This document shows, in pieces, positions 1-33,652 of a stretch of 35,812 bases of DNA. Made by a program: the position numbers and the translations under genes. Source of the stretch: a virus; IMG/VR virus record IMGVR_UViG_3300034152_000396, positions 1 through 35,812 of that record. One strand, given 5' to 3'. The notes under the pieces are model-generated. The model ran no database searches, was not told the DNA's origin, and saw nothing but the letters and a program-made list of their open reading frames with translations. Position 1 is the stretch's first letter; every line of letters starts with the position of its first letter.

Positions 1-141
1 CATCCCCTCGGTCACGTTCCGGAGGTGTTAGTCAGCATTAGGTCAGGACCGGCCGTCGCGAGGGCTCGCAACGCCTGGGCTGCCTCTTCGGCTGTCACGC
101 CGGTCTGGCTCACGACCCGCGCCATATTGACGACACGCTCC
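1..141. repeat. 141-bp terminal direct repeat, copy 1 (circular contig overlap)
   Basis: Bases 1-141 are identical to bases 35672-35812. The copy runs through the 3' end of the 81-codon gene at 12-257 and stops inside it, with no boundary that would suggest a natural element. An exact overlap of this kind at contig ends is what a de Bruijn assembler leaves on a circular or circularly permuted molecule, and 141 is the largest default k-mer of one common assembler. I read it as circularity rather than a physical terminal repeat. Unique length is 35,671 bp. Confidence 0.95.
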
Positions 142-257
142 TCCAGTTCCGCATCGGTGAGGTGGGAGACGTCAATCCCCCACCTCGCCAGCTCACGCCT
201 CAGTGAGGCATGAGGTCCTCCGCGCCGGTCCCACCATCTTTGCAGACGCCAGAGCAC
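12..257 (-). CDS. hypothetical protein, 81 aa
   Basis: I do not recognise this gene. It starts at GTG (255-257), two bases after the TAG of the upstream gene (260-262), so it is probably translated by coupling; no good Shine-Dalgarno site is visible. A longer reading from 323 would overlap the upstream gene by 64 bases and is less likely. The N-terminus is rich in W and R; the middle (around residues 25-70) is a predicted helical segment with an acidic DAELEERVV stretch and an alanine-rich EEAAQALRALA stretch, then a short tail. It is soluble by eye. It ends at TGA, just before the next gene on the circle (35659). The contig junction cuts this gene, so its last 43 codons appear again at 35683-35812. 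Confidence 0.7.
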   Translation of the reverse strand: MLWRLQRWWDRRGGPHASLRRELARWGIDVSHLTDAELEERVVNMARVVSQTGVTAEEAAQALRALATAGPDLMLTNTSGT

Positions 258-259
258 GA

Positions 260-529
260 CTACAGATCCAGCCGATCGAGAGTGTCGGCCACGATCGCCG
301 TTTGACACTGGATCTCGCAGCATCGATTCCGCAATTCGATTGCGTGCTGCGACATCGGGGGCTCCGGTTGAGGATTGTCAGGAGCCACCTCCGGCCCGCG
401 CTCTCGGCAGACCGGCGTTAGGTTCACCCGCAGCTCCTCGATCCGCTCACCCAGCACTCGCACCGCCGTCTCCAGCTCGCCGGACTGTTTCGCGACCATC
501 CGCGGGCGTTCCTGCGTCGTTCCGTCCAT
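260..529 (-). CDS. hypothetical protein, 89 aa, N-terminal coiled coil
   Basis: Function unknown. ATG at 527-529 has a strong ribosome site (AAAGGAGG, 8 bases upstream). Residues about 10-40 form an amphipathic helix (ELETAVRVLGERIEELRV) that may be a coiled coil; the middle is proline-rich; the C-terminal part carries paired cysteines (RNRCCEIQCQ) followed by a helix. There is no signal peptide. It is the first gene after a 200-base gap containing two hairpins, and it is translationally linked to the 81-codon gene behind it. It could belong to the early operon that continues into the DUF2303-type pair. Confidence 0.75.
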   Translation of the reverse strand: MDGTTQERPRMVAKQSGELETAVRVLGERIEELRVNLTPVCRERGPEVAPDNPQPEPPMSQHAIELRNRCCEIQCQTAIVADTLDRLDL

Positions 530-548
530 CCCACCGTCCTCCTTTCTC

Positions 549-567
549 GACTGCCAATCCGGCAGTC
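549..567 (-). promoter_or_regulatory. hairpin just upstream of a ribosome binding site
   Basis: Perfect 7-bp inverted arms (GACTGCC / GGCAGTC) with a 5-base loop. On the minus strand the stem ends only a few bases before the AAAGGAGG site of the gene at 260-529. It could protect the mRNA 5' end after processing or modulate initiation. It lacks a U tract, so it is a poor intrinsic terminator. Confidence 0.45.
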
Positions 568-657
568 GGTCCGCCGTTGTGTCGTGCCACCCACCGTAAG
601 TGCAAGAGTCTAGCGGTATTTCGCGCCGCGCTGACCCGCGTGCGGCATGCGCTGGAA

Positions 658-682
658 GGACCCGAGGCGAGGACTCGGGTCC
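658..682 (-). terminator. 9-bp stem hairpin, possible terminator or processing site
   Basis: Arms GGACCCGAG (658-666) and CTCGGGTCC (674-682) pair perfectly around a 7-base loop. It lies 50 bases after the stop of the gene at 732-1118 in the 530-731 gap. No U run follows on the minus strand, so termination would need Rho or be partial. Apart from this and the hairpin at 549-567, I see no gene and no convincing promoter in the 530-731 gap. Confidence 0.45.
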
Positions 683-731
683 CCCAGTCGCACCGGGCCG
701 GTCCCGCTGCGGGCGTTCGACCGACCCAGGT

Positions 732-1118
732 TCAAGGTACGGCTCCCACCGTCGGGGGTCGTGTCGATCTCGCGTCGTCGATCACCCTCGACACCGCAGC
801 CAGCGTCGCGCGATCTGCCGTCAGCCTTGGTGCCAGCAGCTCCAGGATCCGCTCAGCGTAGCGGACCGAGGGCGGTCCCACCTCTCGCTCTACCACCCCC
901 GGCTCGATCTTGCCGTGGACTCTCACGAGCTGCCACTCGATCCGATCCAAGATCCGGGCGTATTGGATCGCCAGCTCAATAGGGACAGTCCTCTCCGCCG
1001 GCGTCCTCGCCAGGATCTTCCGCACCACTCCCTCGTTACGTGAGACCGGCCTCCCGGGGGTCTTAGTCCTCGACCCAAAGGACCGGGGGCTCTCTTTCTG
1101 CATCTCGGATTCCGACAT
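732..1118 (-). CDS. hypothetical protein, 128 aa
   Basis: Unrecognised protein. ATG at 1116-1118 is chosen over the GTG at 1130 because a GAGAG element sits five bases upstream; either start overlaps the end of the upstream gene (1063) by about 55 bases. The N-terminal 30 residues are basic and polar, probably disordered (SRTKTPGRPVSR). From about residue 35 the chain looks helical: TVPIELAIQYARILDRIEW, then a basic stretch, then RYAERILELLAPRLTADRA and a final AAVSRVIDDARS helix. It has no export signal and no catalytic motif I can name. Operon context (early minus-strand genes) is the only hint of role. Confidence 0.7.
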   Translation of the reverse strand: MSESEMQKESPRSFGSRTKTPGRPVSRNEGVVRKILARTPAERTVPIELAIQYARILDRIEWQLVRVHGKIEPGVVEREVGPPSVRYAERILELLAPRLTADRATLAAVSRVIDDARSTRPPTVGAVP

Positions 1119-1344
1119 TGTAGCTCTCACGATCTAGCATTCCGGTGAACTCAAAGATCAGACGTCCGCCGATCTTGAGGTCGTGCCGGCGCTCGTACCT
1201 TAGCACCTTGGAGAGGGCAGCGGGGTGCGGGCGTATGATGACTTGCCAGGGAGTCGAGGACGGGCACGTCCCCCGGAAGCCGGCATGCGGGCCCCCCTGT
1301 AGGACATAGCGCGCAACCCCGCTCTCCCCCCTCCAACCCGTCAC
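1063..1344 (-). CDS. hypothetical protein, 93 aa
   Basis: Function unknown. The start is the GTG at 1342-1344, which overlaps the TGA of the upstream secreted protein (GTGA). The chain contains a Gly/Arg-rich N-terminus, then alternating beta-like segments (PWQVIIRPHP, LKIGGRLIFEFTG, RESYNVGIRDAE) and ends VLWVED. It looks like a small beta-rich domain. The start is the least sure part: a purine-rich stretch at about 1324-1335 could serve a start a few codons later. It overlaps the downstream gene by about 55 bases. Confidence 0.6.
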   Translation of the reverse strand: MTGWRGESGVARYVLQGGPHAGFRGTCPSSTPWQVIIRPHPAALSKVLRYERRHDLKIGGRLIFEFTGMLDRESYNVGIRDAEREPPVLWVED

Positions 1345-1637
1345 GGTTGTGGCGGAGCGATCCCCGACGCCAGCGTCCGCACAATCCCACTCCACCACCC
1401 ATTCATCCACCAAAACCACCCGCCCCCATACAGCCAGCCCGTCCTGCACCAGTCGCGCTCATCATCGGCTGGATCGGACGCCTCTCGGGCGGGCGGTGCT
1501 ACAGGAGCCGGGGCGCTCTTCTTCACGGTTGACGCAGCGCACGCGGAGTCCAGGGAGAAGCCCACGGCAACGACGCTCGCAAGCAGCTCCAGCGCGACCA
1601 CCACGCAGATCGTGTGTAAGACTCTCTTGTTCTTCAT
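1341..1637 (-). CDS. small exported protein, 98 aa
   Basis: ATG at 1635-1637 with AAGAGGTGACAGG upstream. The N-terminus is a signal peptide: basic MKNKR, a hydrophobic core (ICVVVALELLASVVAVGF) and a small-residue region (ACAAS) suitable for signal peptidase I near residue 31. The mature part is Pro/Ala-rich and then tryptophan- and glycine-rich (GWLYGGGWFWWMNGWW). The W-rich segment could be a surface or membrane-interface element. It is third in a run of exported or membrane proteins (41-aa membrane protein, 454-aa secreted protein, this). I cannot assign a function; exclusion of superinfecting phage or cell-envelope modification would fit but is speculation. Confidence 0.7.
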   Translation of the reverse strand: MKNKRVLHTICVVVALELLASVVAVGFSLDSACAASTVKKSAPAPVAPPAREASDPADDERDWCRTGWLYGGGWFWWMNGWWSGIVRTLASGIAPPQP

Positions 1638-1641
1638 CCTG

Positions 1642-1866
1642 TCACCTCTTCTGATCGAGTGAGTAATGCCGGAGCACCGCAAGCTCCTCCGGAGACACCT
1701 CGGGGATCTTGTGCAACACGAGCTTCTGGATCGCCTGGCGTAGTGTCTCACGGCTCTCTGGATCGAGGATGCAACGGTCCTCGGCCCATAGCTGATTCTC
1801 AAAGCCCTGGATCAGGCGCTCCACGAGGATCTCGGAGTCTGGCGGCATATGCGGATGAGGCTTCAT
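1642..1866 (-). CDS. hypothetical protein, 74 aa
   Basis: ATG at 1864-1866 overlaps the TGA of the 454-aa secreted protein (ATGA), with GGTGGGG as ribosome site, so the two are translated together. The protein is helical and soluble: ILVERLIQGFENQLWAED, ETLRQAIQKLVLHKIPE and SPEELAVLRHYSLDQ. There is no export signal, no cysteine pair motif and no family I recognise. It lies between two exported proteins. Confidence 0.75.
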   Translation of the reverse strand: MKPHPHMPPDSEILVERLIQGFENQLWAEDRCILDPESRETLRQAIQKLVLHKIPEVSPEELAVLRHYSLDQKR

Positions 1867-3227
1867 CGCCCCACCTTGAAAACGTGAAACACCGGACGCT
1901 CCGTCACGCCATCGTCATACAGCTCGGTGACGAAGAGCCACCCCGAGTGAGGATCATCGGGCGGGACTTCCGTTTTGGGGCAGTATGCCACCCCACCGAG
2001 ATTCGGCCCGCTACCGATCAGATAGGACGTCAGGTCGAGCACCGCGTACGGTTGGGGTTCCCAAGGTTCCATAAGTCCCGCGGCTACGAGCCCAAGATCC
2101 CGCGCGCGGAAGAATGCCAGCTCCGCACGCAGCGCCTCAGCTTGAAAGCCTCGATTCCCGCCACAATTCGAGCACTCGCACACGGGCGGGCAAGTTTGCC
2201 CGTTCGGGTATCCGTACCAGCAGCGCGCCGTCCCATCCCCATCCGCATCAAACGCCTTGCGACGCGCGAACACGACGGCGCGCCGCGGACCGTCCTCGAT
2301 AAACGCCGCGCCCGTGTAGGCGTCCTCCGGACAGTGATCTATGATGCAATTATCCGAGGGGTTCTCCCAGCACGCCAGATCATCGTAACGCAGGAGCGTC
2401 GTCACGGAGAGCATCGCGCCGGACTCCACAAGCTCCCCAGCAGTGTTGTAGGGATTGTAGGCGTAAAGCGTCGGCCCACTCGGTCCCTGTCCATCTCGGT
2501 GCCGCCCGCACACTAGGCGGCGCCCCTCCGTCCAGCGATACGCGAACCATTCCGGGAGTTGGAAGAGGTAGCCGTTGGTCTCGATCGCGTTCGGCGTGAG
2601 ATTCCACGGGCCCACGGTTTGCGGATTCGCGAGGTTGAGTCGAAACGCGAAGTGCCGCGGGCCGTCCGTGTACTCGTAGTGTTTGCCGACTTGCCCGTGG
2701 AGGCGCTGCGCGCCCCCACGCCACCATATCTCCACGTCCTTCAGTTTCATCTCGCCGCGGTAGGGGCTGCCGCCCTGTAAAACGGAGCCGCGATAGAGCG
2801 CCCCGTAGGAATTGGCGATCACCGGGCGTGGAATGGTGATCTCGTAGAGCTGCTCGGGGAATCCGGGCTGCCCCATGTAGACGCGATGCCCAGTGCAGAA
2901 GAGCGAGCCCCGGCTGTTGTCGCCGTAGGCGTAGTATTCTTTCGCCCCGTCGCCAAAATCGAGGTCCGAGGGACCGCCGAACGCGCCGAAGTACGTGAGG
3001 TCAAGCTCGGGGTCGATATCGTGAATCCGCATCCCGGCCGGATCCTTCACGAAGCCGGGTCCGATGCCTCGCTCGCGGAACGCCTTGCCCGCGGCAAGAT
3101 CGCCCTCCGGCGTGCCGGGCTTCGGTCCGCAGCCGCCACCGATCAGTAAAGCCCACGAGAGCAGAATCCCCACGATCGCGAGCCCCACTGCGAACCCGCG
3201 CACTTCACGTCCCAGTTTCGGACTCAT
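1863..3227 (-). CDS. large exported protein, 454 aa, probable beta-rich ectodomain
   Basis: ATG at 3225-3227 follows GGGGGAGAGA. Residues about 7-33 form a hydrophobic export segment (VGLAIVGILLSWALLIGGGC), ending in a cysteine that resembles but does not match a strict lipobox, so it is either a lipoprotein or a signal-anchored protein. The ectodomain is rich in aromatic and glycine residues, with repeated beta-like blocks (LDLTYFGAFGGPSDLDFG, GALYRGSVLQGG, HFAFRLNLANP) and a final SGWLFVTELYDDGV..VFHVFKV block that looks like a propeller blade. It has a DADGDG calcium-type loop and two cysteine clusters (CPPVCECSNCGG; CWENPSDNCIIDHC), suggesting disulfides. I recognise no enzyme family. A protein this large and exported, inside a phage early operon, may be a host-acquired accessory gene. 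Confidence 0.8.
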   Translation of the reverse strand: MSPKLGREVRGFAVGLAIVGILLSWALLIGGGCGPKPGTPEGDLAAGKAFRERGIGPGFVKDPAGMRIHDIDPELDLTYFGAFGGPSDLDFGDGAKEYYAYGDNSRGSLFCTGHRVYMGQPGFPEQLYEITIPRPVIANSYGALYRGSVLQGGSPYRGEMKLKDVEIWWRGGAQRLHGQVGKHYEYTDGPRHFAFRLNLANPQTVGPWNLTPNAIETNGYLFQLPEWFAYRWTEGRRLVCGRHRDGQGPSGPTLYAYNPYNTAGELVESGAMLSVTTLLRYDDLACWENPSDNCIIDHCPEDAYTGAAFIEDGPRRAVVFARRKAFDADGDGTARCWYGYPNGQTCPPVCECSNCGGNRGFQAEALRAELAFFRARDLGLVAAGLMEPWEPQPYAVLDLTSYLIGSGPNLGGVAYCPKTEVPPDDPHSGWLFVTELYDDGVTERPVFHVFKVGR

Positions 3228-3285
3228 TCTCTCCCCCTTCCTCAAACTCGACGAGCGGCACTGCGTCAATCCGTGCGAGGATCGC

Positions 3286-3411
3286 TCACGGTGCCCACAC
3301 CCCCACCCAGCGGTTGAGCTGCGCGACGAGCCACCCAATAAGTACGGCAAGCACGAGGAGCGAAAGCACCAGCTTGATCCCACCCCATCCCTGGTTCTTC
3401 TTCTCACTCAC
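3286..3411 (-). CDS. 41-aa single-span membrane protein
   Basis: GTG at 3409-3411 overlaps the end of the upstream gene (stop at 3404-3406). The protein is a short polar N-terminus (MSEKKNQGWGG), one strong transmembrane helix (IKLVLSLLVLAVLIGWLVA) and a 10-residue W-containing tail. The basic N-terminus predicts an N-in topology. It is one of a run of envelope-directed genes. Very small membrane proteins of this type in phages include holin-like, lysis-inhibition and exclusion proteins; nothing here chooses among them. Confidence 0.65.
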   Translation of the reverse strand: MSEKKNQGWGGIKLVLSLLVLAVLIGWLVAQLNRWVGVWAP

Positions 3412-3733
3412 GGTGCAGGCTCCTCGTCTCGAATATGCCCTCCAGGTCGGCCTCGCGCCGCATGATGAGGCGCGCGTAGCGGCTGCGATAGTTGTTGTTC
3501 AACCTGAACTCGGGCGAGTTCGCGTCTGTCGTCAGGAGCCCCTTGCGCCAGCGCAGCACCTCGAACAGCATTCCGATGCCGCAGGCGCGGTGCCCCACCG
3601 CCTTCCAGCGTCTCGCGAGCGTGACGAGTTCGACGTAGATTCGCGGGTTTCCCTCGTGGAAGTCCTGGAACATATCCTCGATCGAGGGTCGCTCATCGGG
3701 ACGCACGAACTCTGGCGACGTCTGCGCCGTCAC
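3404..3733 (-). CDS. conserved phage protein of unknown function, 109 aa
   Basis: GTG at 3731-3733 overlaps the TGA of the HNH gene (GTGA) with GGGGGAG upstream. The pattern NPRIYVELVTLARR, a FEVLRWRKG segment, then EFRLNNNYRSRYARLIM and EGIFETRSL near the end matches, from memory, a widespread small phage protein typically found beside replication and nuclease genes. Its role is not known. It is helical, soluble and has no metal motif. Its neighbour order (HNH, then this) supports an early/DNA-metabolism context. Confidence 0.75.
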   Translation of the reverse strand: MTAQTSPEFVRPDERPSIEDMFQDFHEGNPRIYVELVTLARRWKAVGHRACGIGMLFEVLRWRKGLLTTDANSPEFRLNNNYRSRYARLIMRREADLEGIFETRSLHRE

Positions 3734-4056
3734 GATTCTATCTCCCCCAGGACATATTGCTGGAAGCCTCTCAGGTGTGGCACGAACCACGCCGAATGGA
3801 TTAGCGGGAACAGCCATCCCTGATCCAGATCGAGCTTGGCCTGGATATGTAGGTGGCACTGTTGGCAGAGCGCGGCGAGATTCCAATCTGCGCAGTTCGA
3901 CGGGTCCATGTCGAGATGGTGGACCGTCAGAACGTGTCCGGGCTCGTTCGGGTGGCCGCATCGCTCGCACTTGTATCCGTGCTTGCGTTTCACGGCCTCG
4001 GCGATCGCCGGCCAGTCCTTCGGATACTCGGCTCCGGGTTTCGAGTGTCGCGGCAT
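3730..4056 (-). CDS. HNH endonuclease domain protein, 108 aa
   Basis: ATG at 4054-4056 with AAAGG upstream. The HNH/zinc fold is clear: a CxxC knuckle (C30, C33 in YKCERCG), the beta strand with the catalytic histidines (VLTVHHLDMDPSN, H46/H47), the asparagine in ADWNLAAL (N59), and the second knuckle with the last histidine (LCQQCHLHIQ, C64/C67/H70). This is the metal-dependent nicking or cutting domain found in many phage enzymes. It is free-standing and lies in the replication block, not beside terminase, so it may be a solitary endonuclease or homing-type enzyme rather than a packaging partner. Confidence 0.9.
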   Translation of the reverse strand: MPRHSKPGAEYPKDWPAIAEAVKRKHGYKCERCGHPNEPGHVLTVHHLDMDPSNCADWNLAALCQQCHLHIQAKLDLDQGWLFPLIHSAWFVPHLRGFQQYVLGEIES

Positions 4057-4073
4057 ATCCGGCCTTTCGCGCT

Positions 4074-4388
4074 TCAGTTCGTTGAGGGTCCTCCCTGGCG
4101 CTTCAGCTTCTCCGCCGCCAGTGCTTGGAGCGTTGCGTCGTCGATCGCTTCCAGGATCGTCTGCGAGCCTCTAATCGCTCGCGTCGTGTTTTGGAAAACG
4201 ACATCCCACGCTGCCGCTTTGTTTCCTTTCGCCAGCGCGAGCGCCTCTACCATGCTCTCGCGTGTGCGTTCTTGAAGGTAGCGCGTAGTCTCGACCACCA
4301 TTCGCTCCACCGGCATTGCGAGATTGTCGGCAATCACACGCTGCACGAAAATGTTCATTCGCTTGCGGTACTTATCCGCCAGACTCAC
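4074..4388 (-). CDS. hypothetical protein, 104 aa
   Basis: GTG at 4386-4388 with GAGGAG 7 bases upstream; it overlaps the end of the previous gene by 17 bases. The chain is almost wholly helical and basic at the start (LADKYRKRMNIFVQRVIADN), continues through VERMVVETTRYLQERTRESMVEALALAKGNK, and ends with AIDDATLQALAAEKLKRQG. It may oligomerise. No family recognised. It is co-transcribed with the initiator and HNH genes. Confidence 0.7.
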   Translation of the reverse strand: MSLADKYRKRMNIFVQRVIADNLAMPVERMVVETTRYLQERTRESMVEALALAKGNKAAAWDVVFQNTTRAIRGSQTILEAIDDATLQALAAEKLKRQGGPSTN

Positions 4389-4584
4389 CGTCGTGCTCCT
4401 CTTGTTTTCGCTCGTCCAGCTTCGCCAATTCATTCCCGGGCCTTGCGAAGTCCTCGCCACACACACGGGCCCGCTCGCCCAGGTTAGTGAGCAGAGCGTC
4501 GGTCTCTTTGGCGAGGCGGAGCAGCGCCTTCAGGCGCGCTATTGCCTCCGTAGTATCAACGGTCACCTTGATCGGTCCGGCCAC
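4372..4584 (-). CDS. hypothetical protein, 70 aa
   Basis: The GTG at 4582-4584 has an excellent ribosome site (AAGGGGAG, 6 bases away). An alternative ATG at 4638 overlaps the stop of the initiator gene (ATGA) and would add 18 residues, but it has no ribosome site of its own except by coupling. The protein begins with a beta-like GPIKVTVDTTEA, then a long helix (AIARLKALLRLAKETDALL) and an acidic tail. Small proteins with an N-terminal strand followed by a long helix are common next to phage replication genes. Function unknown. Confidence 0.7.
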   Translation of the reverse strand: MAGPIKVTVDTTEAIARLKALLRLAKETDALLTNLGERARVCGEDFARPGNELAKLDERKQEEHDGESGG

Positions 4585-4634
4585 GTTTCTCTCCCCTTTC
4601 GTGCTCTTCGTTTCACTCATGTCGCGATCGTCGA

Positions 4635-5948
4635 TCATGCCGCCCTCTCTTCTCGCCGGCGATCGAGGAGTTTCTCGATCCCTTGGCGCAGATCACTCTG
4701 CACGTCGCTCGTCGCTCCGTTCAGTGCAGCACGGAAGTATCGCTCCCGATCTGCAAGCACGACCCGGTCGCGCTTACACCTCTCGATCACCCACGCGGTC
4801 GCCAGGCGTCGGTACACGGTGACGACGCAGTGCGCAGACAACTCCTCCAGCCGATAGTCGCGCTCGTCCCACACGAAGAACGAACGCAGTAGGCGCTTGA
4901 TCTCCTCGCGCTCTGGCGCGCGATTGAGCAGCTCGGCGATCGCCCAGCGTGCAATCTCATCATCCGGGACGGAGGCGGGGACGTCCGTGAGCACGGAGTC
5001 GATTATGCCCACCCACGATGGAGCCGGTCTTCCGGCCCCCGCCTTGGTGGCGCTACCCCCCTGGGCATGCTCCTGCTGCGGCGCCCCCGCCAAAGGGACG
5101 ACCCGGCCCGTACCTTTCAGCAGCGCGTCGAATGCCTCGGCCGCGGCGTCATGCTCGCCGGCCTCAGCTTTCGCCAGAATGTCCTTTATAGTGGACAGTG
5201 TCTCTCCCGACTTGTCGGGGGTGCGCTGCGCCAATGTTTGAGTCTTCTGTTTATCTATGTTTTGCCCGACACCCATGTCGGACGACTTTGTCGGGGGTCC
5301 CCCGACACCCGTGTCGGACGAGTTTGTCGGGGGTCTATCGCGAGGCTCCGATGAATCACTCAAAGTGTCGGCGTCCGGGGCCGGGTGCGACGAGGGCAAA
5401 GTCCCCGGGTCCCCTGGCTCGACGGTCTCTCCGCCGAGCGGGTCGGACTTGTCACTCTCCGACCCCGGAGCGCCAGAAGAGGGAACGGGCGGTGGGGGTG
5501 CGGCGGCATCCCCGGGGAGTGCAGGTCCCTCCCCGTCCAGCCCGGCCTCCTCCCCGAACAACGGGAGCCCAGCCTGATCGGGGAGGGGCTCAAGGTGTGG
5601 GAAGTAAAGGCTCGGCTTTCCCAAGCGTTTCTCCACCGTCAGCGCGCGCGCGGTGACGAGCTGCTCCACCATGCGCTCCACCGTGCGCTCGCTCACGGGC
5701 TGCATATCGCCGCGGACCGAACGTCCCGGCGGCAGCCGCGAGGCGAGGTAGCGCAGGCTTGCATCGCAGCGCCCCCGCCGACCATGTCTGACCACGCTCG
5801 CGATCTCACTCCACAACAGCACGGCCCGGGCAGAGACGCGCCCCTCTACGGCCGCTTGCCCGAGCCAAAATGGAAAGACGCGCAGGGCCCCGATCGGCAC
5901 CTCGCGTCGGTTTGCCCCGCCTTCCAGGGCCCCGTCCGTCGCCGCCAC
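4635..5948 (-). CDS. replication initiator/replisome organiser-like protein, 437 aa
   Basis: GTG at 5946-5948 follows GAGGAG. Residues about 15-115 form a winged-helix DNA-binding domain: FPFWLGQAAVEG, a helix ARAVLLWSEIASVVRHG, then DASLRYLASRL and the recognition region SERTVERMVEQLVTARAL followed by a wing. A long acidic, proline-rich linker (about 120-240) contains a tandem 12-residue repeat (PPTNSSDTGVGG / PPTKSSDMGVGQ) encoded by iteron-like DNA. The C-terminal part (about 310-437) is helical and may recruit host helicase. The arrangement (DNA-binding head, linker containing the origin repeats, partner-binding tail) is that of lambda O and related initiators. No helicase or polymerase is encoded, so replication would depend on host enzymes. 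Other wHTH regulators are possible but less likely at this size. Confidence 0.75.
   Translation of the reverse strand: MAATDGALEGGANRREVPIGALRVFPFWLGQAAVEGRVSARAVLLWSEIASVVRHGRRGRCDASLRYLASRLPPGRSVRGDMQPVSERTVERMVEQLVTARALTVEKRLGKPSLYFPHLEPLPDQAGLPLFGEEAGLDGEGPALPGDAAAPPPPVPSSGAPGSESDKSDPLGGETVEPGDPGTLPSSHPAPDADTLSDSSEPRDRPPTNSSDTGVGGPPTKSSDMGVGQNIDKQKTQTLAQRTPDKSGETLSTIKDILAKAEAGEHDAAAEAFDALLKGTGRVVPLAGAPQQEHAQGGSATKAGAGRPAPSWVGIIDSVLTDVPASVPDDEIARWAIAELLNRAPEREEIKRLLRSFFVWDERDYRLEELSAHCVVTVYRRLATAWVIERCKRDRVVLADRERYFRAALNGATSDVQSDLRQGIEKLLDRRREERAA
5206..5334. other. candidate replication origin: iterons plus AT-rich patch
   Basis: Inside the initiator gene. Two 34-bp units (5265-5298 and 5301-5334) differ at only two positions and each contains CCGACA-N4-TGTCGG followed by a half-site ending TTGTCGGGGGT. 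A third, shortened unit, CCCGAC-TT-GTCGGGGG, lies at 5206-5221. Between the short unit and the pair is a 34-base patch (5231-5264) that is about two-thirds A+T in an otherwise very GC-rich genome, a plausible unwinding element. Repeats inside the initiator gene are the lambda-type arrangement. Confidence 0.65.
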
Positions 5949-6015
5949 GGCTCGCTCCTCGCACCCGTCCGCCGTCCGCCGAGGGGAGCCGGGCGCCTTC
6001 CCCCTCGGGTCCCAT

Positions 6016-6291
6016 CTACGCCGCCCGTCTACGTCTAGGTTGTTGCCGCTGCTGGCGTTCGCGCAGTCGTTTCTTCTGCTCGCGTCGTTTCGTGCGCAAT
6101 CTCCGGGATGCCGGGAACGGCTCGCCGTCGTTGTAGTCGCGCTCCATCTGCGTCGTCCCCCGACGCAGCAGGCGCTCCACCGCGGTCGCCTCGTCGAGGC
6201 ACCACGGAGGACCCGAGCACGCCTCCACGGCGTTCTCGAACCGCTCCACGATCTCCCGGTCGATCTTGAACGTCTTCCCTACCCTCGGCAT
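6016..6291 (-). CDS. ribbon-helix-helix type DNA-binding protein, 91 aa
   Basis: ATG at 6289-6291 with GGAGGGAAG upstream. The N-terminus GKTFKIDREIVERFENAVE has the strand (alternating TFKID) plus helix of a ribbon-helix-helix fold, followed by a second helix (EATAVERLLRRGTTQ). The C-terminal 35 residues are extremely basic (RTKRREQKKRLRERQ and onward), suited to non-specific DNA or RNA binding. It is the first gene after the promoter at 6408-6437, whose spacer holds a GGTTGACC palindrome, and is followed 67 bases later by the initiator. RHH dimers bind palindromic or direct short repeats, so autoregulation through that site is an attractive inference. Confidence 0.65.
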   Translation of the reverse strand: MPRVGKTFKIDREIVERFENAVEACSGPPWCLDEATAVERLLRRGTTQMERDYNDGEPFPASRRLRTKRREQKKRLRERQQRQQPRRRRAA

Positions 6292-6407
6292 CTTCCCTCC
6301 ATCGGGACGGATGCGGAGCCCGCATGTTAGGTGAGGCCGTCGCTCAGCCGGTAGCGGGCTCCGCTCCGTATCCACGGGACTCAGCGCCGGTATCTCCGGC
6401 ACCGATG

Positions 6408-6437
6408 ACACTAGGTCAACCCGGTTGACCGTGTCAA
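6408..6437 (-). promoter_or_regulatory. replication operon promoter with overlapping palindromic operator
   Basis: On the minus strand there is a consensus -35 TTGACA (6432-6437), an 18-base spacer and a -10-like TAGTGT (6408-6413, three of six matches). The spacer is the palindrome GGTCAACC-N-GGTTGACC (6414-6430), so a bound protein would block polymerase. The predicted leader to the ATG at 6291 is about 110 bases. The half-site recurs in tandem at 8302-8328. Confidence 0.6.
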
Positions 6438-6444
6438 GCCGGGA

Positions 6445-6740
6445 TGCCAGCCTCGCCACGCCTGGACTCGCCACGCCGTGCCGAGCCACGCCCGGCCGGT
6501 CCTAACCGCGCCACGCCGCGTCAGCCGCGCCATTCCCAGCCATGCCACACCTCACCGCGCCAGTCCGTGCCGTTCTTTGCCTGCCGTGCCACGCCCCGCC
6601 CCGCCAAGCCTTGCCCCGCCCCGCCAGGTTCAACGATTGCCAGCCGAGCCTCGCCGCGCCATCCCGCGGCGCGCCTAGCCTCGAATCGCCAGCCGTGCCC
6701 AGCCACGCCACACCGAGGCTTGCGCCGCCTTGCCGCGCCC
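6445..6740. repeat. degenerate GGCNN/NNGCC pentamer array
   Basis: This fills most of the 6292-6744 gap, which holds no gene I can support. On the plus strand GCC triplets recur at 5-base spacing or multiples of it with variable bases between (for example GCCACGCCGTGCCGAGCC). A sample of 14 consecutive GCCs gave steps of 5 or multiples of 5 except one step of 9. On the minus strand, the direction of the neighbouring genes, it reads as GGCNN. The 5-base period rules out coding. It ends next to the replication promoter. Function unknown. Confidence 0.8.
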
Positions 6741-6744
6741 CGAG

Positions 6745-7254
6745 TTATGCCCTTTTCCTTCGCTTCCTCGCAGCCTTTGTCCGTAGGAATCGCGCGTCAC
6801 CCTCTTTGATGATCTCTTCCAGCCACCGTCCGTGTGTCGCGAACTCGGAGGCAACAGACGCCAGTCCCGCCACGCGGTCGATGTATCCTCGCAACCGTGC
6901 CCACTCCACCGCGATCTGCTGACGAGCAGACTGCTTGTCGCTCATTACTGACATGGTGAGCCGGTATCCCTCGCCGCAGGATACCGCGCCGGCGACCACC
7001 CGCAAGACTTCAGGGGACGAGCGATGAGTACCCGTGTGCATGAAGACCTTATAGGCTTCCATCACGTGGCGAGCTTCGTGCATTCGCAGCGTATGTCCGG
7101 CCTCGGCATCGTCCCACGTGAAAAGACGATGAAGGGGAGAGCGTTTGTGTTTGGCCGCGCGGACGAGTTCCTCCGGAGTTATGGCGTCCGGTTCTCTTCC
7201 TTGCAGCAGCTTCGTGACTTCAGCGCCCTCTGATTCTGTGAGTTTTCGTGGCAT
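6745..7254 (-). CDS. conserved phage protein of unknown function, 169 aa
   Basis: ATG at 7252-7254, with GAGGAG ten bases upstream, is preferred over a TTG seven codons earlier that overlaps the ribosome site. The segment TPEELVRAAKHKRSPLHRLF..WDDAEAGHTLRMHEARHVM matches from memory a protein family often seen in phage early operons, in which a short-range helical domain with a WDD motif precedes a beta-like segment. The rest is helical with a very basic end (TKAARKRRKRA). It may bind nucleic acid, but no function is established. It overlaps the extended (post-amber) reading of the upstream gene by 35 bases. Confidence 0.7.
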   Translation of the reverse strand: MPRKLTESEGAEVTKLLQGREPDAITPEELVRAAKHKRSPLHRLFTWDDAEAGHTLRMHEARHVMEAYKVFMHTGTHRSSPEVLRVVAGAVSCGEGYRLTMSVMSDKQSARQQIAVEWARLRGYIDRVAGLASVASEFATHGRWLEEIIKEGDARFLRTKAARKRRKRA

Positions 7255-7969
7255 CGACAGTTTTCTCCTCGACAATCTGAAAGAGTCCCCAACCCATACC
7301 CGCGGAGTTCGTGCTGTCCGGGCGTCCTTCTCCGATCCCTACCCACTCGCCAGCTACCGCGTACAGATTGGCGATGTCCGAATGCGAGAACTGATCCAGG
7401 TTGAACTTGATGAGTGCTTTTGCGGTCTAACCCGGAGCCCACATAGCACGAGTTCGGATGTCCGGCGGGCGTGCGCGTCCCGAGTTCCGCACCACCGACT
7501 CGATCCGCTTGGGACGCCCGTTGATCTTCACGAGTGGGGTGGCGGTGAGTTCGTCATAGAAATCGGGAACCACCTGAATCGAGAGCTTGGCACGGGTCAT
7601 CGCGAAGCCCTTGACCTTACACGCACTGATCGCAGCATCCCGCAGCGCGTTGGTGGGAATCCCTCGCTCGCCCTTCGGTCCTCGATACATAGCCTCGGCG
7701 AACTCGCCCGCGAATCTCCTGGGCTCGCGCTTGATGTTCTTTCGCGCCTGATCGCCCAGCTCCATCTTCTTACGCATAGCACGCTGCGCTCTCGCCGTCA
7801 TGCGCTGCTGGACGTACGCCTCCACCCCCTTCATACTGACCAGAAGATAGCCAACATTAGGGGGGGTGATGGTGATTCGTTCGATCCCTTCCTCGAATCC
7901 TTGCCCTTCGTGTTCACTGTTGAGCTGGTTTTCTGCCGCCTCCGTCGAATCCTGCTGTACCTCTCTCAT
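7220..7969 (-). pseudogene. conserved phage protein interrupted by in-frame TAG (180 + 68 codons)
   Basis: The ATG at 7969 starts a reading frame that stops at TAG (7427-7429) after 180 residues. Directly after the TAG, in the same frame, the sequence continues with protein-like residues (TAKALIKFNLDQFSHSD, then VGIGEGRPDSTNSAGMGWG) to a TGA at 7220-7222. That ending matches my memory of the C-terminus of the same conserved phage family, whose members read IRVRAMW-PG-x-x-A before it. So the full gene is about 249 codons with one amber. A TGG to TAG mutation would explain it; readthrough or sequencing error are alternatives. TAG ends many genes here, so it is not a recoded codon. Family role unknown; it sits among early genes. 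Confidence 0.75.
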
Positions 7970-7987
7970 TTTCGTTTCCTCGCCGTC

Positions 7988-8233
7988 TTAGAGCCTGTGG
8001 CTCTCTTCGTCGGGCGTTGGCCCGTCTAGGAATCCGAAGAGCACGCCGCGCGCATACTCCCCGGGGTGGCACTTGATCCAGCAGGCGGCCGGGTAGTCGC
8101 CGGCGCGCTCTGCTTCTCGGGCGACCGTACGGGCACAGAAGCGAAATCCATCGGGCAGCCTACCCCAGGCCGCCCACACGCCCGCGATCACCTCCAGAGG
8201 CGCCCTTGCCGGACGCTGGCTTCCGCCGTCCAT
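7988..8233 (-). CDS. hypothetical protein, 81 aa
   Basis: ATG at 8231-8233 with AGGAGGCG upstream. It is the first gene of the leftward unit that starts opposite the plus-strand operon. The chain reads as a compact globular domain: LEVIAGVWAAWGRLPDGFRFCARTVA.. followed by AERAGDYPAACWIKCHPGEYARGVLFGFLDG. Two cysteines lie in ACWIKCH. No family recognised. Being promoter-proximal and divergent from the other operon, it may be an early gene. Confidence 0.75.
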   Translation of the reverse strand: MDGGSQRPARAPLEVIAGVWAAWGRLPDGFRFCARTVAREAERAGDYPAACWIKCHPGEYARGVLFGFLDGPTPDEESHRL

Positions 8234-8261
8234 TGTCGCCTCCTGGCTCTGGAATGGGCGA

Positions 8262-8291
8262 ACCTTACTCGATTCGGGCCCGGGCCGGCAA
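8262..8291 (-). promoter_or_regulatory. candidate leftward promoter for the gene at 7988-8233
   Basis: Minus-strand TTGCCG (8286-8291), 18 bases, then TAAGGT (8262-8267). The match to consensus is moderate (-10 three of six). It would start transcription about 25 bases before the ribosome site of the 81-aa gene. It faces away from the plus-strand promoter at 8304-8332, and the tandem GGTTGACC boxes lie just upstream of both. Confidence 0.35.
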
Positions 8292-8301
8292 GCTCTTTTT
8301 C

Positions 8302-8332
8302 GGTTGACCGGGTTGACCGGGTTGACTAAAGT
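8302..8332 (+). promoter_or_regulatory. plus-strand operon promoter built on three tandem GGTTGACC boxes
   Basis: Three 9-base units GGTTGACCG, GGTTGACCG, GGTTGACTA (8302-8310, 8311-8319, 8320-8328). The first contains the -35 TTGACC (8304-8309); a 17-base spacer leads to -10 TAAAGT (8327-8332, four of six). The first gene starts at 8390 behind AGGAGG. The box is the half-site of the palindrome in the replication promoter, so the two operons are probably co-regulated. Confidence 0.65.
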
Positions 8333-8389
8333 CCGGGGTGGCGGGGGCCGATACAGGAGAGGAGCCGCCCCCGGGAACAGGAGGTCGTT

Positions 8390-8797
8390 ATGGGTTCCGA
8401 GTTCGTCGCTCGACGTCCGCGGCCCGGCCAGTACCTCGTCTCGCTCGACACGAGACGAGTGTCCGGTCGGGTCGTTTCTATTCGCTCACGCGATCGCCGC
8501 GTGCGGATCGAGCGCAGGAACGGCGAGAGATTCTACACCTGGGCGGACTGGGAGGAGCTGCAGTACGGGCCCGGGCGCTATCGGTTCGTTGACGTGGTAC
8601 CGCCAACATTCACCGAAAAGCGCAAGTTGGAGCCGAGCGAGCTGTGCGTGGACTGCAGGAAACCGGCCGAGATGGTCTTTCACTCGTTCAAGCTGCGGCG
8701 GGGCTGGAGCGCAGTTCCCGTCTGCCGGCACCACTGGGGACTGCGCGAGGAGCAGCGCCTCGCGCAATTCTACGCCAAACATGGGGGGAAGCGATGA
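8390..8797 (+). CDS. hypothetical zinc-finger-like protein, 135 aa
   Basis: First gene of the only plus-strand operon. ATG at 8390 with GGAACAGGAGG upstream. The N-terminal half is beta-like and basic (GQYLVSLDTRRVSGRVVSIRSRD, then RFYTWADWEELQYG), resembling a small barrel domain. The C-terminal half carries a probable zinc site: ELCVDCRKPAEM, then PVCRHHWG. Together this suggests a nucleic-acid-binding or protein-contact factor. It overlaps the next gene by ATGA. No known family; a host-takeover or regulatory role is a guess from position. Confidence 0.75.
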   Translation: MGSEFVARRPRPGQYLVSLDTRRVSGRVVSIRSRDRRVRIERRNGERFYTWADWEELQYGPGRYRFVDVVPPTFTEKRKLEPSELCVDCRKPAEMVFHSFKLRRGWSAVPVCRHHWGLREEQRLAQFYAKHGGKR

Positions 8798-8979
8798 GAC
8801 TGCAGCTCTGCTCGGACGAGGGCGAAGTCCTGGAAGTGTGGGAGGATCTCGCTTACAAGGGGGCGAATTACGAGCACCCCGAGGACGTGAACAAGCTCGC
8901 GTTTCCTATGGCGTGGGCATTCATTCGTAGCTCGATCGTGGACGCGATCCAGCGCCGCGAGGAGGAGAGGGTGCGATAA
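8794..8979 (+). CDS. hypothetical protein, 61 aa
   Basis: ATG at 8794-8796 overlaps the TGA of the previous gene (ATGA), with a GGGGGAAGCG ribosome site. The protein has a beta-like N-terminus (MRLQLCSDEGEVLEVWEDL), then YKGANYEHPEDVNKLAFPMAWAFI and a C-terminal helix ending in EERVR. It is acidic and soluble. No family recognised. Translation is coupled to its neighbours on both sides. Confidence 0.7.
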   Translation: MRLQLCSDEGEVLEVWEDLAYKGANYEHPEDVNKLAFPMAWAFIRSSIVDAIQRREEERVR

Positions 8980-9152
8980 TGAAGGGCTCGCGTTTCAATC
9001 ATCACGGGTACCGCGTCTGCTGGAGTGATCGGCGACGCGCGAACATCGCCCCGCTTCGCGTCTCCTGGCGCGCCGCTCTGGCCTGGCTCCTGATCTGCGG
9101 CGCGCTCGGTTTCGCACTCTTCTGGAGTCTCGCTCGCGAGGTGTCGAAATGA
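8979..9152 (+). CDS. 57-aa single-span membrane protein
   Basis: ATG at 8979-8981 overlaps the TAA of the previous gene (TAATG) and its TGA overlaps the next ATG (ATGA). A basic 35-residue N-terminus (SDRRRANIAPLRVSWR) precedes one hydrophobic helix (AALAWLLICGALGFALFW) and a short tail SLAREVSK. N-in topology is expected. It is adjacent to a second membrane protein, so the two could form a pair in the envelope. Role unknown. Confidence 0.65.
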   Translation: MKGSRFNHHGYRVCWSDRRRANIAPLRVSWRAALAWLLICGALGFALFWSLAREVSK

Positions 9153-9649
9153 ATCGAATCCCTAGACGTCGTCCTCCGACGACGGAGGAGGCAATGGAAG
9201 AGCTGCGCGCTTCCCTCGACAATCTGACGCAGGTCGTGATCGCGCAGGTCCGCCTGAATCTCTCCAGGCTCCTCGCGCTGGCGTTCGTTCTCTTTGTGCT
9301 GGCCGTCGGGCTCCTCTGCACGTCGGATGTTGAGCCGGTGACGGGAGAAGAGCGTATCAGCCACCATGTCGAGTCTTACCAGATGGGGGACTCGGTCTAT
9401 TATCACGTTGTCGCAGAAACGACTCACGTAGAGACACCCGAGGAGCGGGAGATCAAAGAGCTGAGGCGTCGTGCTCGACGTCTGGACGAGGACGCCTCCT
9501 ATTGTTCGGCATATCGGCCGGGAACGATTGATTTAGCGGTAACGAAGTATCACGCTCTGCACGCCGGCGCGGCCTGTCGGATCGCGGCATCGACTTTGCG
9601 CCGCGAGGCGCGGGAGTTAGAGCGCGAGCTGGAGGGGGGTGGGGAATGA
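9149..9649 (+). CDS. membrane protein with charged C-terminal domain, 166 aa
   Basis: ATG at 9149-9151 overlaps the preceding stop. Residues about 16-40 form an amphipathic helix (AMEELRASLDNLTQVV), residues about 40-57 a transmembrane helix (LLALAFVLFVLAVGLL) and the remaining ~110 residues a periplasmic-type domain with alternating charges (EEREIKELRRRARRLDED) and two cysteines (SYCSAY, AACRIA). The layout of one TM helix plus a coiled-coil-prone ectodomain resembles inner-membrane spanin subunits, but it is far from the endolysin and no lipoprotein partner is seen. It may instead be an envelope-stress or exclusion protein. Confidence 0.65.
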   Translation: MNRIPRRRPPTTEEAMEELRASLDNLTQVVIAQVRLNLSRLLALAFVLFVLAVGLLCTSDVEPVTGEERISHHVESYQMGDSVYYHVVAETTHVETPEEREIKELRRRARRLDEDASYCSAYRPGTIDLAVTKYHALHAGAACRIAASTLRREARELERELEGGGE

Positions 9650-9906
9650 ACCGGGCACGCCGACGCCGGCGCCGCGGACGGATCGTCGCGGTGCGCACGG
9701 GGCGCAATCGCGCGCTCGTGATCGCCGAAACCCCGCGCGGGCAGCCCGCCCGCTTCGCCTTCGTGGACGTCGAGCCTGGACCCCTGCGGTCGCCGCCGCG
9801 AATCTCGCCGGCGACCGCCGCCTGGGTCCGCAATCAAGGCGAGGTGTACGTCCCCACGCTCGAACACGAGCCCCGGTCCGCCATTCCTGGCGGTCACGCA
9901 CGGTAG
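9646..9906 (+). CDS. hypothetical basic protein, 86 aa
   Basis: ATG at 9646-9648 overlaps the previous TGA, with GGAGGGGGGTGGGG upstream as ribosome site. The first ten residues are nearly all arginine (NRARRRRRRGR), followed by beta-like stretches (IVAVRTGRNRALVIAET, RFAFVDVEPG) and a proline-rich second half. This looks like a small nucleic-acid-binding protein, perhaps with an SH3- or KOW-like barrel. No family identified. Confidence 0.65.
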   Translation: MNRARRRRRRGRIVAVRTGRNRALVIAETPRGQPARFAFVDVEPGPLRSPPRISPATAAWVRNQGEVYVPTLEHEPRSAIPGGHAR

Positions 9907-9916
9907 GGGGTGGACA

Positions 9917-10156
9917 ATGGCCTGCGAACGCCGGCAACGGAACGGAACCTGCGCGCACAGTCAGTGCCCGTATCCGATGGAAAGCGGATACGAGTGCGTG
10001 GAGATCGTGGTGGACACCGACGGGACGTCCTTCTGTGAGGTGGGGGAGGCATGCCCGGCTTATCAGTGCCCGTCGCGCTGGGATGCCGGGGACTTGGAAG
10101 CAGCCGAGCGCGCCCTGAGACTCTTTGAGGCACTGTATCCGGAGCCGGACGCCTGA
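9917..10156 (+). CDS. cysteine-rich small protein, 79 aa
   Basis: Last gene of the plus-strand operon, 10 bases after the preceding one; ATG at 9917 with GTAGGGGGTGG upstream. It has seven cysteines (C3, C12, C17, C27, C40, C46, C51) and H14 in the first 51 residues, then a helix (GDLEAAERALRLFEAL). With no export signal, the cysteines probably bind one or two zinc ions. It could be a zinc-ribbon adaptor. Function unknown. Confidence 0.7.
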   Translation: MACERRQRNGTCAHSQCPYPMESGYECVEIVVDTDGTSFCEVGEACPAYQCPSRWDAGDLEAAERALRLFEALYPEPDA

Positions 10157-10181
10157 GAGGCTCCAGGAGCGCCGATCGCCA

Positions 10182-10213
10182 GGGCCCCGGTGGAATGAGA
10201 CCTGCCGGGGCCC
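10182..10213 (+). terminator. hairpin after plus-strand operon
   Basis: Perfect 9-bp arms GGGCCCCGG (10182-10190) and CCGGGGCCC (10205-10213) with a 14-base loop, 26 bases after the stop of the last plus-strand gene. No U run follows. It lies in the 10157-10347 convergent gap, which has no gene. Confidence 0.55.
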
Positions 10214-10266
10214 GATCGCGTCCTGGCCCGCCCTCAGCATTCACGAGGGGCCCGAATAGAGCGCCG

Positions 10267-10302
10267 GCCCGGATCTCCGCGCCCAGTTCGCGGAGTCCGG
10301 GC
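10267..10302. terminator. long bulged hairpin between convergent operons
   Basis: GCCCGGA + CTCCGCG (10267-10281, one bulged T) pairs with CGCGGAG + TCCGGGC (10289-10302) around a 7-base loop, 14 base pairs in all. Being symmetrical, it can act on transcripts from both sides: the plus-strand operon ending at 10156 and the minus-strand late operon ending in the tRNA gene. Confidence 0.55.
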
Positions 10303-10347
10303 CGTACGCCTCGCCGCCGGGTTGGGCTCCCCGGGCGCCGGCGGCCT

Positions 10348-10422
10348 TGGTAGCGGGGGCGGGACTCGAACCCGCGACCTACAGGATATGAGCCTGTCGA
10401 GCTGCCACTGCTCTACCCCGCA
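10348..10422 (-). tRNA. tRNA-Met (CAU), initiator-like, CCA encoded
   Basis: A 75-nt cloverleaf folds on the minus strand. Acceptor 2-7 GCGGGG pairs with 66-71 CCCCGC, while U1 and U72 do not pair. D stem GAGC/GCTC, anticodon stem ACAGG/CCUGU with loop CUCAUAU (anticodon CAU), T stem GCGGG/CCCGC with loop UUCGAGU, discriminator A and an encoded CCA. The unpaired 1-72, the A11-U24 pair and the acceptor arm resemble bacterial initiator tRNA-fMet; the third G-C pair of the anticodon stem is replaced by A29-U41. It starts 9 bases after the last late gene and is probably cut out of that transcript. An isoleucine (lysidine) tRNA is the alternative. Confidence 0.93.
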
Positions 10423-10431
10423 ATTCGTCCT

Positions 10432-10764
10432 CTAGTCGGGCAGAGACGCCGCGAACCCCGCCAGCGGCGCCCAGTTCGTGACGAGCCGCACTTTCTCCAG
10501 CGCATTCAGGCGTAGCATCGGGAGCACGGTGGGGCCGCCGACGTTCAGAACCATGTCGGACAGGCTCTCCAGCGTGGAACCCTCCGGGAAGGGCAGCAGC
10601 ACCTTGTCGGTGAAGTCGGTGACGAACTCGTCGAAATCAGCCAGGACGGCCGGATCCGCGCCGTCGGCGGCCTCCCCCGACCCGGGAACGATCGCGTCAG
10701 CCCATACGTCGAGCTGCTTCACCATGTCCACGACGGACAGGGAGAGAAACACCTTTGCTTTCAT
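10432..10764 (-). CDS. hypothetical protein, 110 aa, end of late operon
   Basis: ATG at 10762-10764 overlaps the TGA of the upstream gene. The protein is acidic and mostly helical: KVFLSLSVVDMVKQLDVWAD, a Gly/Ala/Asp-rich loop, DFDEFVTDFTDKVLLPF, then PTVLPMLRLNALEKVRLVTNW. No export signal. It lies two genes after the endolysin, followed by the tRNA. It is not recognisable as a spanin. Function unknown. Confidence 0.75.
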   Translation of the reverse strand: MKAKVFLSLSVVDMVKQLDVWADAIVPGSGEAADGADPAVLADFDEFVTDFTDKVLLPFPEGSTLESLSDMVLNVGGPTVLPMLRLNALEKVRLVTNWAPLAGFAASLPD

Positions 10765-33009: not shown

Positions 33010-33192
33010 TCAGCCCCCCGACTTCGTGACGTCCCTCGATTGCACCTCTGCCCAGTCCATCACGTCGCGCAGACGATAGCGGACCGTGTGGCCCCCGAGC
33101 TTTACGAACCGGGGCCCGCCGCCCTGGCTTCTCAGATTGCGCAGCGTGTGGGGGGATATCTGGAACAGATCGGCGACCTGCTCCGGTGTCAA
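33010..33192 (-). CDS. excisionase-like HTH protein, about 60 aa
   Basis: The domain LTPEQVADLFQISPHTLRNL.., then FVKLGGHTVRYRLRDVMDWAE is a MerR/excisionase type helix-turn-helix (HTH_17). The start is unclear. TTG at 33190-33192, twenty bases after the RusA stop, gives a 60-aa protein; the only ATG upstream in this frame (33358-33360) would add 56 low-complexity residues lying wholly over the RusA C-terminus. No integrase is present, so it is more likely a small regulator than an excisionase. It directly precedes the small terminase. Confidence 0.7.
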   Translation of the reverse strand: MTPEQVADLFQISPHTLRNLRSQGGGPRFVKLGGHTVRYRLRDVMDWAEVQSRDVTKSGG

Positions 33193-33211
33193 GTACCTAT
33201 CGGGACCGCCA

Positions 33212-33652
33212 TTATTCCCCGGCGCCGGTGCCGGGGAATCCGGCTCGCCACCATTCTCCGGCTGCTGGGACTGGCTCGATGATGAGTTCGACTCGCGGGT
33301 TTTGTTTGTCCGGCGGCGCTTTCCGAACGTCCTTCCACTCGACCTGTCGGTCGTTCCCATACGCGAACCCCTCCAGAACGTCGAGAATCAGACTCTCGTC
33401 GAGATCCGGGAGTCTGCTTGCATAGTACACAAGCGCCGTCACCTTGACGGCCTGGGGAGCCCTGAACAATGGCCGCGGGAGCCGCCGCAGTGAAAACGCG
33501 GTCTGGAGCTGCAGCCGAGCGCCAGCCACGTACGCCAATGCCTCCGCGGACTTGATACTTCTCTGGCGCCGGCGCCCGCTGCGGTCCGTAGTCCAGCCCG
33601 GCCGGCGCCGGTTCGCCTTGCTGTACGGTTGGCCCAGGATCGTGAGCGTCAG
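33212..33652 (-). CDS. rusA: RusA-family Holliday junction resolvase
   Basis: Endonuclease that cuts four-way DNA junctions to resolve branched DNA before packaging. The metal-binding acidic set is present: LPDLDESLILDVLEG with D83 and D85, and GNDRQVEW with D101; the N-terminal LTLTILGQPYSKAN and the end NPRVELIIEP also fit RusA. The start is uncertain. CTG at 33650-33652 overlaps the upstream TGA and gives 146 aa; the nearest ATG is 28 codons earlier (33734-33736) and would overlap the 64-aa gene. The final 21 residues (AGEWWRAGF..) extend past the usual end. Confidence 0.85.
   Translation of the reverse strand: MTLTILGQPYSKANRRRPGWTTDRSGRRRQRSIKSAEALAYVAGARLQLQTAFSLRRLPRPLFRAPQAVKVTALVYYASRLPDLDESLILDVLEGFAYGNDRQVEWKDVRKAPPDKQNPRVELIIEPVPAAGEWWRAGFPGTGAGE

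Follow-up and report, generated by a model that had tools for sequence, protein, structure and literature searches.

What kind of tRNA is encoded at positions 10348-10422 of this virus genome, and why would a phage carry it? Open papers on phages and initiator tRNA offered little on the purpose of phage initiator tRNAs. The window, by which we mean the whole stretch of 35,812 nucleotides that was analysed, is a 35.8-kb IMG/VR virus record of class linear, possibly a fragment, with a G+C content of 58-69%. It carries one tRNA, which was identified by both ARAGORN and Rfam as a tRNA-Met(CAU) at 10348..10422 on the minus strand, 75 nt long with an encoded CCA. The Rfam match (RF00005, 64 bits, E=7.8e-12) covers the full length. 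Read on the minus strand and divided into its structural parts, the tRNA is U GCGGGG UA GAGC AGUGGCA GCUC G ACAGG CUCAUAU CCUGU AGGUC GCGGG UUCGAGU CCCGC CCCCGC U ACCA. The tRNA parts, as read from these letters, and the two neighbouring features are as follows.

10352..10422, minus strand: acceptor stem, with U1 (10422) unpaired opposite U72 (10352), followed by six pairs including G2-C71, C3-G70 and G4-C69
10400..10412, minus strand: D arm, with the initiator-type pair of A11 (10412) and U24 (10400)
10381..10397, minus strand: anticodon arm ACAGG CUCAUAU CCUGU, compared with bacterial and viral initiators
10432..10764, minus strand: last open reading frame of the late block, 110 aa, not assignable to a known family; its end lies 9 nt ahead of the tRNA
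10266..10303, minus strand: strong G+C-rich hairpin lacking a U run, found by folding, downstream of the tRNA and between the convergent gene blocks

The U-U mismatch at 1-72, the A11-U24 pair and the two G-C pairs of an expected three in the anticodon stem, on which the original prediction had been built, are all present on the minus strand. Since base -1 is also U, no neighbouring 5′ end would allow positions 1 and 72 to pair. In the anticodon stem, A29-U41 (10395, 10383) replaces a G-C pair, and G30-C40 and G31-C39 are kept; the anticodon CAU lies at 10388-10390, and U38 (10386) adjoins C39 (10385). All stems are paired, and the D and T loops retain the bases expected in a working tRNA. The cloverleaf has a calculated energy of -30.9 kcal/mol, comparable to those of two chromosomal initiators (-30.5 and -30.3 kcal/mol). 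In a bare-RNA calculation, which ignores modifications and tertiary contacts, the lowest-energy fold is not the cloverleaf, as a competitor at -33.7 kcal/mol lies 2.8 kcal/mol lower.

To assign the tRNA to a class, two profiles were built from gathered tRNAs, one from bacterial initiators and one from elongator- and Ile2-type CAU tRNAs, and were tested on held-out members. Held-out initiators scored +34 to +53 bits and held-out elongator-type CAU tRNAs -51 to -23 bits, a separation that is large even though the initiators for training were collected by scanning for the U1-U72 pattern, which favours copies like the window tRNA. The window tRNA was assigned to the initiators by +29.6 bits over the elongator profile. 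Furthermore, the formylation determinants described in PMC7949028, namely a 1-72 mismatch, G2-C71, C3-G70 and A11-U24, were all found in its sequence. Both results bear out the initiator-like reading of the original prediction, and the identity as a complete tRNA-Met(CAU) of the bacterial initiator class is, as far as sequence can tell, well supported. An elongator tRNA-Met or a lysidine-modified tRNA-Ile2 would share the CAU anticodon, which is common to all three classes, but the classifier score, the U-U at 1-72 and A11-U24 already contradict such an assignment, and we consider it hardly credible.

Most of the features that had seemed unusual are ordinary. Initiators with U1-U72 are common on bacterial chromosomes, where at least 119 chromosomal stretches carry exactly this form, so that the mismatch was rejected as a phage signature; many Gammaproteobacteria and Bacteroidota chromosomal initiators share it. 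The presence of only two of the three G-C pairs, put forward as an oddity, is not special either. In a sample of 150 Pseudomonadota genomes, A29 turned up in 20, and in 31 of the roughly 115 matching genes, which means that three G-C pairs are not strictly defining for initiators, and 74 of 112 viral initiators among the IMG/VR matches listed have a base other than G29. The missing pair was accordingly rejected as a defect: some Pseudomonadota normally have A29-U41, and phages often do. Some of the IMG/VR initiator matches sit at contig ends and resemble host genes (18 of 68 lie within 300 nt of an end). Among 50 internal viral copies, 32 lack G29 and 9 carry U29, compared with 4 of 127 chromosomal U-U genes lacking G29 (among the matches listed). 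U29 itself was seen in 1 of about 349 bacterial genes versus the 9 of 50 internal viral copies (p=3.5e-8), the bacterial exception being an odd Chloroflexota match (G456).

The base in which the window tRNA is least like bacterial initiators is one that the original prediction did not mention. Its anticodon loop is CUCAUAU, with U at position 38. Among the matches listed, A38 is present without exception in the 127 chromosomal U-U initiators. A pattern search for a non-A38 version of the same gene gave no hit in either 299 genomes of Pseudomonadota or 301 of Chloroflexota, with a sensitivity such that the gene was visible in 80 of 150 Pseudomonadota and 95 of 151 Chloroflexota genomes sampled. 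The same search of IMG/VR returned 44 stretches (30 with C38, 13 with U38 and one with G38), several of them from one phage group. Most phage initiators keep A38: an unselected IMG/VR scan found a changed base in only 3 of the 120 stretches listed, two of these being the same tRNA, and set against about 242 bacterial genes this difference is weak on its own (p=0.036). Among other phage records, 4 of 19 were changed, namely Clavibacter phage CN1A (U), DSS3_MAL1 (U), Pseudomonas phage PaMx74 (C) and a fecal contig (C); the 19 had been selected from a list of similar records with their sequences still unread, and this list was ranked by similarity to the U38 query, which leaves a small bias.

Several single cases were also observed at this loop. 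Three separate viral contigs (L070, L169 and L318) carry the same U38 initiator-like tRNA with an odd T arm, GUCAUAAACGGUUCGAAUCCUACC, which is unusual or possibly degenerate. In the fecal phage contig MT838750 (L409:61-134), an initiator-like tRNA has the loop UUCAUUC, in which both positions 37 and 38 are changed. An annotated Met tRNA of Janthinobacterium phage Donnerlittchen (L396:61-137) has the loop CCCAUAA, where C replaces the near-universal U33.

Initiator-type tRNAs are numerous in phages, with 65 similar records in a phage collection and at least 120 IMG/VR stretches. Phage-encoded initiator tRNAs are already present in GenBank, at least one of them annotated as tRNA-fMet; the kind is uncommon but known. 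In Stenotrophomonas phage vB_Sm_QDWS359 (ON331942), the initiator is annotated as tRNA-fMet and lies near the terminase gene; unlike the window tRNA, it keeps A38 and G29-C41, has the loop base U32 and adjoins a tRNA-Ile gene. The tRNA of Clavibacter phage CN1A (KF669650) shares the loop CUCAUAU with U38, as well as A29-U41, U1 and A9, but differs in a longer D loop, A72 and other 27-28 and 42-43 pairs. It is unannotated in its record, as are initiator-like tRNAs in VBv52, which is without any annotation, PaMx74, NTR1, R6L and PHB04. Gordonia phage GodonK and Alishewanella phage Slicko01 (L395 and L411) each have two adjacent tRNA-Met genes, one of which is initiator-like.

The closest chromosomal initiators are from Chloroflexota. 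The nearest, from Anaerolineaceae (L281), has 67 matching bases and is identical in acceptor stem, D arm, variable region, T loop and the 1-72 mismatch. The window tRNA differs from it by A27-U43, A29-U41 and U38, where L281 has U27-G43, G29-C41 and A38, and by one swapped T-stem pair (51-63). Terminase relatives at E<=1e-60 were found in 48 of 299 Pseudomonadota genomes and in none of 400 Chloroflexota genomes. As the two signals disagree, a host assignment from tRNA similarity was rejected.

The genomic position agrees with a late role for the tRNA. The right two thirds of the window form a minus-strand late block with the small and large terminase subunits, portal, a fused protease/major head protein, neck and tail proteins, tape measure and endolysin. 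By gene order the tRNA closes this block, in keeping with the operon-end position given in the original prediction. The last late gene, on the same strand, has its stop codon at 10432, 9 nt before the tRNA 5′ end at 10422, and the tRNA is therefore probably co-transcribed with the open reading frame 10432-10764 and the late block. Plus-strand genes facing the tRNA end at about 10156, and the hairpin at 10266-10303 is a possible transcript end; the whole stretch around it folds slightly better than shuffled sequences (z -1.39). A scan for promoters and intrinsic terminators around the tRNA found none. The sequence, the initiator class and the genomic position of the tRNA are established. The 824-aa fused protease/major head protein (23994-26468, minus strand) is of the VP882, phiHAP-1 and Persinger kind with best identities of 30-41%, which places the phage far from described relatives, and its capsid and terminase relatives are distant. 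In the left arm (1-10200), genes lie on both strands and almost none match Pfam or PHROGs.

It had also been argued that about 20 GTG or TTG starts would make an extra initiator useful. Such starts do occur, in somewhat lower number (13 GTG and 2 TTG in 42 genes, from a heuristic and uncertain gene call). A single initiator tRNA reads ATG, GTG and TTG alike, and so the argument from start codons is weak.

A working initiator supplied late in infection is the most likely reading, with nuclease evasion as a testable addition. Probably, the phage-encoded tRNA(fMet) provides initiator from the late operon and tops up or replaces the host initiator when this is short or damaged. The gene would be transcribed at the very end of the late (structure and lysis) operon; host enzymes for tRNA processing would trim the transcript, host MetRS would charge it, and the host formyltransferase would then formylate it. 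The formylated tRNA could start translation of late mRNAs at ATG, GTG and TTG codons and add to or stand in for a host pool that is short or damaged. For the window tRNA, we infer its transcription, processing, charging and formylation, as well as its use in initiation and a benefit to the phage. This reading is favoured by a CCA-complete tRNA of the initiator class with intact stems and loops that sits directly behind the last late gene, and by the retention of initiator-type tRNAs in many unrelated phages. Against it stand the non-cloverleaf minimum fold and the results from relatives: no IMG/VR relatives were found for the two late genes tried next to the tRNA, and among 20 records with capsid relatives only 2 have any tRNA (Thr, Gly and Cys). 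The retained initiator determinants weigh against a captured host initiator, still working or nearly neutral, whose anticodon arm has changed to no purpose under relaxed constraint. The greater variability of pair 29-41 and of base 38 in viral than in bacterial initiators would fit such drift. However, the matched changes relative to L281 at 27-43, 29-41 and 51-63 keep every stem paired, and together with the retained initiator determinants they make selection for a working tRNA visible; purposeless change is, in our judgement, unlikely. Much less likely still is an origin as a relic left when a phage integrated into the initiator tRNA gene of its host. Phages often use tRNA genes as attachment sites, and the initiator matches near contig ends in IMG/VR would suit this origin, but here the full-length gene lies inside the record, and its 3′ part has no second copy anywhere in the window. 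The open reading frames scanned gave no match to an integrase family, in a record that may be incomplete, and an excisionase-like helix-turn-helix protein (33010-33360) is far from the tRNA and adjoins the terminase genes. On the basis of the single copy in the window and the lack of an integrase match, an attachment site was rejected.

A further possibility is that the phage retains the tRNA for an anticodon arm that, above all through U38, resists host nucleases such as VapC, which would be a special form of late initiator supply rather than its opposite. VapC toxins of Shigella and Salmonella cleave tRNA-fMet once, at A38|C39 (PMC4105405), and in the window tRNA it is U38 that stands beside C39 at the position of this enteric cut. 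PMC10264068 proposes, in general terms, that changes in the anticodon loop let phage tRNAs evade nucleases, and in both these tRNAs and the T5 tRNA-Lys that faces PARIS/AriB (PMC12409363) a phage copy of a tRNA targeted by defence enzymes has a changed cleavage region, as it does here; in contrast to those cases, resistance of the window tRNA is a hypothesis. A38 is present in all bacterial initiators examined and changed in the 44 viral stretches and four further phage records described above. On the other hand, most phage initiators keep A38, phages reportedly tend to forgo a tRNA-fMet gene of their own where VapC occurs (PMC10264068), and drift under weaker constraint would yield the same pattern. 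We regard evasion as a tentative explanation with a low probability. Since the base at a toxin cut site is changed with pairing and initiator identity kept, it can be stated as a testable hypothesis. It is likewise conceivable, though rather doubtful, that the non-A38 phage initiators form a recurrent, independently evolved nuclease-proof class that would sustain initiation after VapC-type cutting.

At base 38, the sampled bacterial initiators are fixed for A, whereas phages have altered this base, part of a known toxin cut site, more than once. The contrast offers a cheap and specific way to test whether initiator tRNAs are carried by phages in order to withstand defences that cut tRNA. Cultured phages changed at this base, such as Clavibacter phage CN1A and Pseudomonas phage PaMx74, make testing practical. 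If evasion is indeed the reason, translation starts would persist once VapC-type toxins of the host have cleaved its own initiator at A38|C39.
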